A stretch of DNA of 64,000 bases, taken from NCBI RefSeq assembly GCF_000724545.1, contig NZ_JHBV01000042.1:1-64000 (forward strand), in the 5' to 3' direction. The position numbers were made by a program, and so were the translations under genes. This stretch comes from Aureispira sp. CCB-QB1. GTDB lineage: Bacteria; Bacteroidota; Bacteroidia; Chitinophagales; Saprospiraceae. Shown here piece after piece: positions 25,844 through 28,930 of this stretch. Every line of letters starts with the position of its first letter. Position 1 is the stretch's first letter. The notes under the pieces were generated by a model. That model did no database searches and was not told the DNA's origin. It worked only from the letters and a program-made list of their open reading frames with translations.

Positions 25844-26278
25844 AAGTACTTTTTTTCAAAATTAATCAATGGTATAAAGAAGAATGGAGGATTCTTCGGA
25901 AGGATTTTGAGCTATTACCTTATCAGAATAATGTGGGCGTATTCTCAAAAAGGAACCCTTTAAATCCATGATTTCAATAGGTTGCAATTTATTTCTAGGG
26001 ATATGGTTAAACATTACTCCGTTGAAAAATCGTATTAGTTAAGCAATATAAACTAAAATTAAATAGTAAATTATCATTGTTGTGTAAATCTTTATTCTTT
26101 GTTAAGTATAAAAAAGGTTTTAAAGTACTGTCGTTTGAGTTTTTGACCTCCCCTAAAAAAAACTTAAAAAAAATGTTTATTAGGATTTAGGGCAAAGATA
26201 TTTCGAAACGATTAAAAGTTTGCTATCTTGGAAAGTTGCTATTCGTATATCCAACTAGATAAAAATCAAGGCGTAAAA
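25844..26278. other. Intergenic region between the subtilase and the wHTH array
   Basis: This is the divergent spacer between the two genes. It holds one repeat copy (26012-26046). On the minus strand, exact TAnnTTTG boxes occur at 25864-25857 and 26200-26193; the first is too close to the start codon to be convincing. On the plus strand, TATCTTGG at 26224-26231 is a one-mismatch box that could serve the wHTH genes. No reading frame or stable hairpin stands out. Confidence 0.4.
26012..26046 (-). repeat. Copy of the fold-back element arm
   Basis: Bases 26012-26040 are identical, as reverse complement, to 20299-20327 (29 of 29). The core is ACTCCGTTGAAAAATCGTAT. Confidence 0.8.
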
Positions 26279-27115
26279 ATGGAAGATTCTTTTATATTTT
26301 TTTTGATTATGTTTTTACTCTTGGGATGTATTCCGATGATTCAGATATATTACAAAAATCAATATGAGAAAAGTAGGAGTAAATTTTCAGATGCAGAGAT
26401 TTTTAAATTAATGTCTAGAGCCAATCATTTTCTCACAGCCAAACAATTATCAATGGTTTCTGCCTTGAGCAAAAAAGAAGCTGCGAATCGATTAGCTTAT
26501 TTATCGATGAAAGGGATCGTGAAAAAATTTCAAGATGGTAGTGGCATGCGAACGGTTTATCAACTAAAAGAAGCGTTACCAGAGGACGATATTTTACCGA
26601 TTAGCATAGAAGGTTTGACGGAGACAGAAATTGTTGATGCGGTAATGAGCTATTCAAAAGATTATCAAATTACAATTGCAGAATTGGTCATCATTTTTGG
26701 AATAGAAATCGAATTGGCAAAACAAACACTAGAACGATTGAAAAAAAGCGGTTTGGTGAAACGATTGTGGAAAGGAACTTCGTTAATATATGTTGTAAAA
26801 GATCCTTTGATAAAGGGAACGCCTAAATTTGAATCATCTTCGCCACCAATTAAGATCAAGCTTCCTAAAGAAAGCAAACAAGAGCGAGAGATTGTAAAAT
26901 TAAAAATTCCCGATGCGGATATACTTCGTTTAGCTATTGAACACAAGGGACGTTTGACCGTAACATTGGTTTGCCTAAAATTAAACATATCAATAGAAGA
27001 AGCGCAAATAAAACTAGATGACTTATACGAGCAAGGGGCGTTTATTATAGATGTCAATCAACAAGATGCCTTGGTAGAATATTATTTGAGAGATAAAAAT
27101 TTGTTGGAACAATGA
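26279..27115 (+). CDS. Membrane-anchored triple winged-helix-like protein, paralog 1
   Basis: I start at the ATG at 26279 (MEDSFIFFLIMFLLLG), giving 278 residues. One membrane helix at 4-23 is followed by three modules of about 60 residues, each with three helices and a beta hairpin, as in winged helices: 38-98 (DAEIFKLMSRANHFLTAKQL ... TVYQLKE), 113-174 (TETEIVDAVMSYSKDYQITIAEL ... LIYVVKD) and 210-272 (PDADILRLAIEHKGRLTVTL ... LVEYYLRD). A lysine-rich linker (190-207) joins modules 2 and 3. It overlaps the next gene by four bases (ATGA). No enzyme motif is present. Function is unknown; DNA-binding or protein-docking at the membrane is inference only. Confidence 0.8.
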   Translation: MEDSFIFFLIMFLLLGCIPMIQIYYKNQYEKSRSKFSDAEIFKLMSRANHFLTAKQLSMVSALSKKEAANRLAYLSMKGIVKKFQDGSGMRTVYQLKEALPEDDILPISIEGLTETEIVDAVMSYSKDYQITIAELVIIFGIEIELAKQTLERLKKSGLVKRLWKGTSLIYVVKDPLIKGTPKFESSSPPIKIKLPKESKQEREIVKLKIPDADILRLAIEHKGRLTVTLVCLKLNISIEEAQIKLDDLYEQGAFIIDVNQQDALVEYYLRDKNLLEQ

Positions 27116-27945
27116 AGGTAGCACTGATTATTATAGGTATTATTTTATATTTTCTGTTCATTGCAGCCATTGTATATTGGTCAAAAAATAGATTAAAAAA
27201 ACAACATGCTGCGAGTCAACATAAACTTTCAGACGCAGATTTGTTTAAAATGATGACCCAGGCAAATCATTTTTTAACTGTAGAGCAGTTGGTTGCTTCT
27301 TCTTCTTTGGATCTTAAAGAGGCGAAAGTTCGTTTTATGCATCTTGCCTATCAAGGGGTATTACGCAGTTATTACGATTCTAGCGGAACAGGCAAGGCGA
27401 TATACCAACTCAAAGAAGAGGTACCATTGATTTCGTCTGTTCGAACGAACATAGATACGTTGTCAGACAAAGAAATTGTGGAAATGATTTTGTTGCATGT
27501 TAACGATTATCAAGTTACGGTAGCAGAATTAGTAGTTATTTTTGGTATTGATATCTATGAGGCGAAAGCTTTGATTCAGCGTTTGAAAAAAAATGGAGCC
27601 ATTAGTGTTCTTAGAAAAGGATTCAATCACATTTATGTAATCAATCAAACGATTCACCTTAAAGAACCTCGACTTAGAGACAAAACTCAACAGCGTCAAT
27701 TACAAAAAATAAAGTTACCACAACAAGAACGTATTAAAATCCCAGATGCTGATGTAATACAATTAGCCATCAACCATAAAGGGAAATTAACTCCTACATT
27801 ACTTTGCTTGAAAAAGAAAATCTCTATAGATGAAGCCAAGCAAAAGTTAGAAGAATTATACGAGCAGGGAGCTTTTATAATGGATGTGGATGAGGATAAT
27901 TATGTGATGGAATATCACTTGAGAGATCGGTCTTTGTTGGAATAA
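27112..27945 (+). CDS. Membrane-anchored triple winged-helix-like protein, paralog 2
   Basis: This 277-residue protein has the same plan as its neighbours: a membrane helix (about 3-23), module 1 starting DADLFKMMTQANHFLTVEQL, module 2 starting SDKEIVEMILLHVNDYQVTVAEL and module 3 starting PDADVIQLAINHKGKLTPTL. The ends of the modules carry the paired strands of the wing (AIYQLKE, HIYVINQ, VMEYHLRD). The second module keeps AELVVIFGI and the third keeps LYEQGAFIMDV, both shared by all three paralogs. Translation is coupled to paralog 1 through the ATGA overlap. No function is recognised. Confidence 0.8.
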   Translation: MKVALIIIGIILYFLFIAAIVYWSKNRLKKQHAASQHKLSDADLFKMMTQANHFLTVEQLVASSSLDLKEAKVRFMHLAYQGVLRSYYDSSGTGKAIYQLKEEVPLISSVRTNIDTLSDKEIVEMILLHVNDYQVTVAELVVIFGIDIYEAKALIQRLKKNGAISVLRKGFNHIYVINQTIHLKEPRLRDKTQQRQLQKIKLPQQERIKIPDADVIQLAINHKGKLTPTLLCLKKKISIDEAKQKLEELYEQGAFIMDVDEDNYVMEYHLRDRSLLE

Positions 27946-28084
27946 TAAGGAGTGGCTAAGAACGGATTTTTGATGAGATCTATTTACAAAAAAATAACTA
28001 GTAATGAACGAATTAGGAAGTTGTTCTGTTGGTTGTTATTGGTGTAGCTGCTCTATGGAATGTCAATGATATAATAAACTAGAA

Positions 28085-28930
28085 ATGAAAGTACTTGCTT
28101 TAGTTGTATTGATTGGGATTATAATTTTTATGGTTGCATTAATTTATTATGCAGTGAAAGCTCATTATCAAAAAGTATATAATGATACCAAACACAAAGC
28201 AACCGATGCTGATATTTTTAAAATTATGGCTCAGTCAAATAATTTTATTACAGAAAAGCAATTGGCAACAGCAACCGATTTGACAGAAAAAGAAGCGACG
28301 AGTCGTCTAGCTTATTTAGCAATGTCAGGAGCTTTGAGGCGTTATTATGATGCAAATGGAAGTATGAAAGGTGTTTATCAATTGATAGAACGTGTTCCCT
28401 TGTTTGATTCATTGCCTGCTGAATTATTTGGTCTATCTGAAGATGAAATTATTTCCGTTATTTTATCTCATGTAAACGACTATCAAATTACTATTGCAGA
28501 ATTGGTGGTTATTTTTGGAATCAATGTGTTGGATGCCAAAGCCTTACTTCGTCGCTTGACAAAGGCTAAAAAAGTTAATGTTTTGTACAATCAAAGTTTT
28601 CAACAGATTTATGTAATCAATCAATCCTTGCACACAGCTGCACCAGTGTTACGAAAACTACCTGCAAAAAAAGATAAGCTATCATTAGAACTATCCCAAC
28701 AACAGAAAATAAAAATTCCAGATGCAGCAATGTTGAAATTAGCCATTGAGCACGATGGGAGGTTGACTCCTACACTTGTTTGTGTCAAATTGCAAGTATC
28801 CATGGATGAAGCCAAACTAAAATTGGAAAACTTACACGAACAAGGCGTTTTTGAAGTGGCAATAGACGAACAAAACGCCATGATAGAATATCAAATTAGA
28901 GATCGAAGCTTGTTGGATAAAGCCGATTAA
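28085..28930 (+). CDS. Membrane-anchored triple winged-helix-like protein, paralog 3
   Basis: This is the third member of the tandem array, 281 residues, after a 139-base gap. It has a membrane helix at about 3-24, then modules starting DADIFKIMAQSNNFITEKQL, SEDEIISVILSHVNDYQITIAEL and PDAAMLKLAIEHDGRLTPTL. The closing peptide RDRSLLDKAD resembles RDRSLLE of paralog 2 and RDKNLLEQ of paralog 1. The shared architecture with clear divergence shows two rounds of tandem duplication. It is convergent with the next gene, with one base between the stop codons. Confidence 0.8.
   Translation: MKVLALVVLIGIIIFMVALIYYAVKAHYQKVYNDTKHKATDADIFKIMAQSNNFITEKQLATATDLTEKEATSRLAYLAMSGALRRYYDANGSMKGVYQLIERVPLFDSLPAELFGLSEDEIISVILSHVNDYQITIAELVVIFGINVLDAKALLRRLTKAKKVNVLYNQSFQQIYVINQSLHTAAPVLRKLPAKKDKLSLELSQQQKIKIPDAAMLKLAIEHDGRLTPTLVCVKLQVSMDEAKLKLENLHEQGVFEVAIDEQNAMIEYQIRDRSLLDKAD

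Follow-up and report, generated by a model that had tools for sequence, protein, structure and literature searches.

What do three adjacent proteins, each composed of one membrane helix and three winged-helix modules with no visible enzyme, do in Aureispira, a marine filamentous bacterium of the Saprospiraceae? The proteins, here termed W1, W2, and W3, are encoded in tandem in a 64,000-nucleotide stretch of Aureispira sp. CCB-QB1 (contig NZ_JHBV01000042.1, positions 1 to 64,000), the whole of which is referred to as the window. A first-pass annotation made from the DNA letters had described adjacent paralogs of 278, 277, and 281 residues, the first two overlapping by ATGA, and had proposed that nine wing modules held at the inner membrane could form a DNA-tethering, sensing, or protein-assembly device. 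The open reading frames are present with pairwise identities of 42–50%, the start of W2 overlaps the stop of W1 (ATGA), and W1–W3 are the only family matches in the 7.37 Mb genome. They belong to a Saprospiraceae family of membrane-anchored tandem winged-helix proteins that is new within the databases and literature covered, and we tentatively favour the reading that they act as membrane-tethered, cytoplasmic docking scaffolds of winged helices at the inner membrane.

26279..27115, + strand: W1 (paralog a), 278 residues, membrane helix and three winged-helix modules (open reading frame and AlphaFold2 model)
27112..27945, + strand: W2 (paralog b), 277 residues, architecture as W1 and W3 by alignment
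28085..28930, + strand: W3 (paralog c), 281 residues, architecture as W1 (open reading frame and AlphaFold2 model)

Anatomy and membrane topology

AlphaFold2, run with a ten-sequence alignment for W3 and W1, models each protein as a long helix at the N-terminus followed by three winged helices, with a predicted local distance difference test score (pLDDT) of 76.6 and a predicted template modelling score (pTM) of 0.60 for W3, and a pLDDT of 77.4 and a pTM of 0.55 for W1. The modelled modules of both proteins follow the winged-helix order H1-S1-H2-H3-S2-S3, their secondary structure running helix-(strand)-helix-helix-strand-strand, where only some of the modules have an assigned first strand. 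W2 aligns with the modelled paralogs over its full length. The anatomy initially proposed (a single membrane helix at the N-terminus, then three winged-helix modules) is thus borne out by structure prediction, the check suggested for it, in W3 and W1 and by alignment in W2. The individual modules appear credible in the models, whilst their relative placement is not fixed by them, given the pTM of 0.55–0.60 and a pLDDT below 50 in the disordered linker that precedes module 3 in both.

26282..26374, + strand: W1 membrane helix, residues 2-32 (model and Kyte-Doolittle hydropathy)
26390..26566, + strand: W1 winged-helix module 1, residues 38-96 (model)
26621..26797, + strand: W1 winged-helix module 2, residues 115-173 (model); module 2 profile matches MarR-type domains
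26915..27088, + strand: W1 winged-helix module 3, residues 213-270, net charge -4 (model)
28088..28189, + strand: W3 membrane helix and juxtamembrane continuation, residues 2-35 (model and hydropathy)
28205..28384, + strand: W3 winged-helix module 1, residues 41-100 (model)
28439..28618, + strand: W3 winged-helix module 2, residues 119-178 (model)
28625..28717, + strand: W3 disordered linker between modules 2 and 3, residues 181-211, pLDDT below 50, net charge +4
28724..28897, + strand: W3 winged-helix module 3, residues 214-271, net charge -4 (model)

The conserved blocks noted earlier in modules 2 and 3 are real and invariant across the W1–W3 alignment, comprising, in W1 numbering, A134 E135 L136 V137 I139 F140 G141 I142 in module 2 and I210 P211 D212 A213 ... 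L218 A219 I220 H222 G224 L226 T227 in module 3. Profiles of the three modules also match one another, with single-comparison expectation values (E) of 1.5e-9 for modules 1 and 3, 2.1e-7 for modules 1 and 2, and 1.1e-5 for modules 2 and 3 (34 columns), suggesting that the modules arose by internal duplication.

Counts of topology, charge, recognition helices, and conservation are based on a set of 16 proteins, which omits, besides G831 and the forms from G067 and G168, the G156 copies (same species), the broken copy a in genome G001, and the third copy on contig 561 of G105. The N-terminus is the most hydrophobic segment in all 16 (in W1 the best 19-residue Kyte-Doolittle mean is 2.62 in the anchor versus 1.52 farther along), and in 16/16 it is followed by 15 residues with a net positive charge. 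For G006_c the start was taken as the ATG 21 residues past an upstream TTG; read from that TTG, the protein carries +4 before the membrane helix versus +2 behind it. By the positive-inside rule, the positively charged flank of a membrane helix faces the cytoplasm, and the net-positive flank behind the helix would therefore place the N-terminus outside and the C-terminus inside, so that the winged-helix modules should be cytoplasmic. The membrane helix of W1–W3 starts at residue 2 where modelled, and hydropathy likewise puts its start among the first few residues; with so little ahead of it, W1–W3 have no extracytoplasmic sensor domain.

Protein docking and DNA binding weighed

A winged helix is commonly taken as a sign of DNA binding, and the recognition helices of the family were compared with a control of 28 of 30 fetched MarR-type domains from the window's genome and its relatives (two below the cut-off were excluded), drawn from a longer match list and including at least 6 near-identical orthologs, so that its members are not independent. 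The position occupied by Thr in MarR is acidic in 44/48 modules of the family (16/16 modules 1, 12/16 modules 2, and 16/16 modules 3, where it is Glu in every case), compared with 2/28 control domains, the remaining 26 carrying T, S, N, A, or I. The recognition helix of module 3 is net acidic in all 16 proteins (mean -3.0, range -5 to -1) and the module as a whole is negative in 15, with a charge of +1 in G003_c, yet module 3 is the best conserved of six segments, with a mean identity of 0.56 versus 0.44 for module 1 and 0.42 for module 2. Its net acidity makes conventional DNA binding by module 3 unlikely, and a conserved acidic winged helix of this kind speaks for protein contact.

On the docking reading, one N-terminal anchor helix would hold two or three modules in the cytoplasm, and these modules, above all the acidic and best-conserved module 3, would bind protein partners and keep them at the membrane, with the flexible linker giving reach. 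We count towards it the winged-helix fold in both models, the acidity and conservation of module 3, the acidity at the Thr position, the lack of an enzyme or sensor domain above cut-off, and the presence of ESCRT-II and UFL1-DDRGK1, winged-helix arrays that work at membranes, among the best multi-module PDB neighbours.

The statement that no enzymatic domain is visible stands, with W1–W3 showing only sub-threshold matches at the curated cut-offs of Pfam and NCBIfam. MarR_2 (PF12802, cut-off 27 bits) reaches 17.4 bits in W1 and 12.4 in W2, EAP30/ESCRT-II (PF04157, cut-off 26.8 bits) reaches 24.2 and 14.9 respectively, neither is listed for W3, and the best NCBIfam match of W1 is ArsR/SmtB (3.4e-5, 23.5 bits against a cut-off of 55). 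At E 0.1, the 11 members of alignment A2 most often match DnaD_N (11), ribosomal S25 (9), EutK_C (7), EAP30 (7), MarR_2 (5), and GlgB_N (4), families most of which contain winged helices. A sequence profile search of the PDB gives two matches (best E 0.21), and a viral structure library gives a best E of 6.3e-5 at a TM-score of about 0.2, none of the 50 matches listed carrying an informative name. A defence or phage origin was considered and seems unlikely, with PADLOC and PHROGs matches weak and the named ones mostly transcription regulators; the best in PADLOC is AbiEi (1.1e-5, in 3/10 members), with no W3 match there at E 0.1.

In Foldseek searches, the top neighbours of both models are winged-helix arrays, namely TFIIIC tau-B, an RNA polymerase III complex chain, UFL1-DDRGK1, and ESCRT-II, with best E values of 9.5e-5 for W3 and 1.7e-5 for W1. 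With TM-scores of about 0.2 and only parts superposing, these matches reflect likeness of plan and not kinship. ESCRT-II subunits (EAP30/Vps36) are tandem winged helices that act at the membrane via protein contacts, having two winged helices each and no membrane helix of their own; Foldseek matches W1 to them with E down to 1.1e-4, at TM-scores for the two models of 0.19–0.20 of the query, the module arrangement not being fixed in the W1 and W3 models. One survey reports ESCRT homologs for archaea and not for bacteria (PMC10936438). Another neighbour is UFL1-UFBP1 (DDRGK1), with UFBP1 described as having an N-terminal membrane segment and cytosolic tandem winged helices (PMC9627666). W1–W3 share this combination, though not its sequence (11–12% identity), and match UFL1-DDRGK1 at E 1.5e-3 (W3) and 1.0e-4 (W1) with TM-scores of 0.17–0.18. 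UFL1-UFBP1 differs from W1–W3 in being eukaryotic, with PCI-like winged helices, one of them a composite from two partners, and in working with an E2 (PMC9627666). W1 also gives weak structural matches to the C-terminal part of SelB (1lva, E 5.3e-3) and to ScpB (6juv, E 2.1e-2), each with several winged helices per chain. These bacterial and archaeal proteins are soluble and bind RNA or SMC-kleisin. The closest matches to single modules of W1 and W3 are MarR/ArsR-type regulators, which are soluble dimers of one domain each and, in the MarR-type control, differ from the mostly Glu-bearing family at the Thr position described above. A stronger form of the docking reading, in which the proteins are an anchored platform assembling a cytoplasmic protein machine, as a convergent bacterial counterpart of ESCRT-II or UFBP1-UFL1 that diversified into three paralogs in Aureispira, seems to us improbable.

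Several observations weigh against docking. The residue-level comparison of modules 1 and 3 with MarR leans on a weak alignment, with a match probability to the control profile of 31% and 5% respectively, compared with 96% for module 2, and the control includes close orthologs. The mean charge of the recognition helix is basic in module 1 (+1.25) and module 2 (+2.50), as in the control (+1.46). Additionally, the structural TM-scores are only about 0.2, the first neighbours include DNA-bound factors (TFIIIC and the RNA polymerase III subunit), the single-module matches are mostly DNA-binding MarR/ArsR repressors, and no neighbouring gene is common to the family across genera in the loci compared. 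The weak alignment, the orthologs in the control, and the basic helices of modules 1 and 2 are the reasons why our preference for docking is only tentative.

In a DNA-binding alternative, the proteins are one-component regulators or nucleoid-membrane tethers, with modules 1 and 2 binding DNA near the membrane and the acidic module 3 dimerising or regulating access. Module 2 matches MarR-type domains with a single-comparison E of 1.2e-8. The basic recognition helices make contact of modules 1 and 2 with DNA or RNA quite possible, the inter-module linker is basic in 13/16 proteins, many lower-ranked PDB matches, like the best NCBIfam match of W1, are to MarR/ArsR repressor types, and module 3 of G067, a distant three-module relative, passes MarR_2 (45.6 against 27 bits). 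Membrane-bound winged-helix regulators also exist; CadC and ToxR have an N-terminal winged helix and a sensor domain behind the membrane helix. In W1–W3 this order is reversed, with the membrane helix first and no sensor domain. Tethering of a winged helix to the inner membrane is described for CadC-type regulators (PMC5430869). The acidic Thr position, the acidic module 3, the missing outer sensor, and the lack of a conserved adjoining target gene in the loci compared count against this alternative, which we consider possible but rather doubtful. The nine-wing DNA tether initially imagined is not supported as stated, as the recognition helix of module 3 is acidic throughout, the trio has no enforced stoichiometry, and relatives with two modules exist.

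Distribution and descent of the family

The survey of genomes proposed at the outset was run on the Saprospiraceae, with the two-module profile matching 49/398 genomes (two- and three-module forms counted together, copy number 0 to 4) and the three-module profile matching 18/199. A class-wide sample yields 1/295 matching genomes, the window's own, and a phylum-wide sample 7/296, comprising the window's own, one family member, and five weak partial matches outside Saprospiraceae; these genome counts are lower bounds, as detection relies on a coarse first screen. A profile scan of public genomes returned four loci, and a scan of public genome contigs with W3 alone found no relative among 34 stretches. 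The open reading frames were read at two of the five loci outside Saprospiraceae, and neither was counted as a family member. One (L067:1498-1983) encodes a Bacteroidota protein in which two membrane helices and a single winged helix can be discerned by eye, and which may represent a simpler kind of membrane-bound winged-helix protein; the other we take to be Fic-like from its HPFxDGNGR motif.

The three proteins do not appear to be an obligate set. Within Aureispira, 6/9 genomes carry the family, whilst G004, G005, and G007 (92, 99, and 96% complete) have no match; G003 (3 contigs, 98% complete) and G002 carry two copies each, and copy a of G001 is broken. With relatives lacking one or all of them, W1–W3 need not form one complex. 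In the broken gene, on contig 94 of G001, a metagenome-assembled genome (L017:950-1260), the reading frame changes within the membrane segment and modules 1 and 2 are lost, the start of module 1 being joined to module 3 where the two share a similar GATGCxGATGT stretch; recombination between internal repeats possibly produced it. Two-module genes of genus g7 also lie in tandem pairs in several genomes (L057, L078, L083, L084, L086, L089), and tandem duplication is thus recurrent in the family.

A maximum-likelihood tree of 28 proteins, a subset of those found, separates three-module proteins (Aureispira, G105, G086, G181) from two-module proteins of other Saprospiraceae, with the three-module G067 placed, unsurely, on a very long branch among the latter. 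W1 groups with G006_a and G003_a, W2 with G006_b and G001_b, and W3 with G006_c and G003_c; as each paralog groups with its own orthologs, the tree places the triplication before the split of the window species from its congeners G006 and G003. The family is under purifying selection, with a ratio of nonsynonymous to synonymous substitution rates (dN/dS) of 0.05–0.12 between species, where dS is near saturation in several pairs and one saturated pair is excluded, and of 0, 0.05, and 0.14 between two strains, values underlain by very few changes. This selection, along with the three ortholog groups kept apart in the tree, argues against the trio being a mere product of duplication, lineage-specific paralogs with a minor, redundant role, a reading that the variable copy number, the Aureispira genomes without a match, and the broken G001 copy would otherwise favour and that we regard as unlikely.

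Gene neighbourhood and significance

On one side of the trio lies a divergently oriented subtilase gene that includes a secretion-tail domain, and on the other an M20 peptidase gene in convergent orientation. The subtilase is retained 5' of the family genes in G003, G006, and G001, and the M20 gene 3' in G003 and G002, being absent there in G006, whilst the G001 contig ends at that point. Upstream of W1 lies a short block that is also found 5' of copy a in G006 and G001 (16/17 bases) and G003 (14/17), and that may resemble the Bacteroidetes -7 element TAnnTTTG. The gap between W2 and W3 (27946-28084) is 139 bp in both strains of the window species and ~20 bp in G006.

26219..26235, + strand: putative promoter-like block TTTGCTATCTTGGAAAG, upstream of W1

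Elsewhere, family genes lie directly 3' of uvrD, as a single copy in G086 and G181, where stop and start share one base, and as three copies after a 15 bp gap at one of two loci in G105 (UvrD identity confirmed by Pfam in G086 only). Two further genes beside uvrD, C6 and C7, are common to all three loci (L050:6937-10007, L051:6428-9498, L053:218-5106). This arrangement would suit an accessory factor of DNA repair or replication working with the UvrD/PcrA helicase at the membrane. Against such a role, the uvrD ortholog of the window's genome (74% identical) sits on another contig with no family member, those of this genome being confined to the window, and two-module relatives adjoin other genes, such that we judge it very unlikely. 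Several loci of genus g7 have an acyl-CoA thioesterase and an ABC ATPase as these neighbours, both genus g88 loci have PadR and PspC, and in genus g86 a TerB-like gene lies 4–7 bp 5' of the two-module gene in 3/3 loci (L077, L097, L098; Pfam check in one).

The first-pass claim that no described system has this design holds across Pfam, NCBIfam, PADLOC, PHROGs, the PDB (sequence and structure), and searches of open-licence literature, in which no title or opening of an abstract describes the family. To our knowledge, most cases of winged helices serving as a membrane docking platform are eukaryotic, ESCRT-II and UFL1-UFBP1 among them, and W1–W3, if they are indeed docking scaffolds, would provide a clear bacterial case. 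If they instead bind DNA, they would represent a nucleoid or gene regulator that is tethered to the membrane and has no sensor domain. Under either reading, a previously unannotated family gains an architecture.

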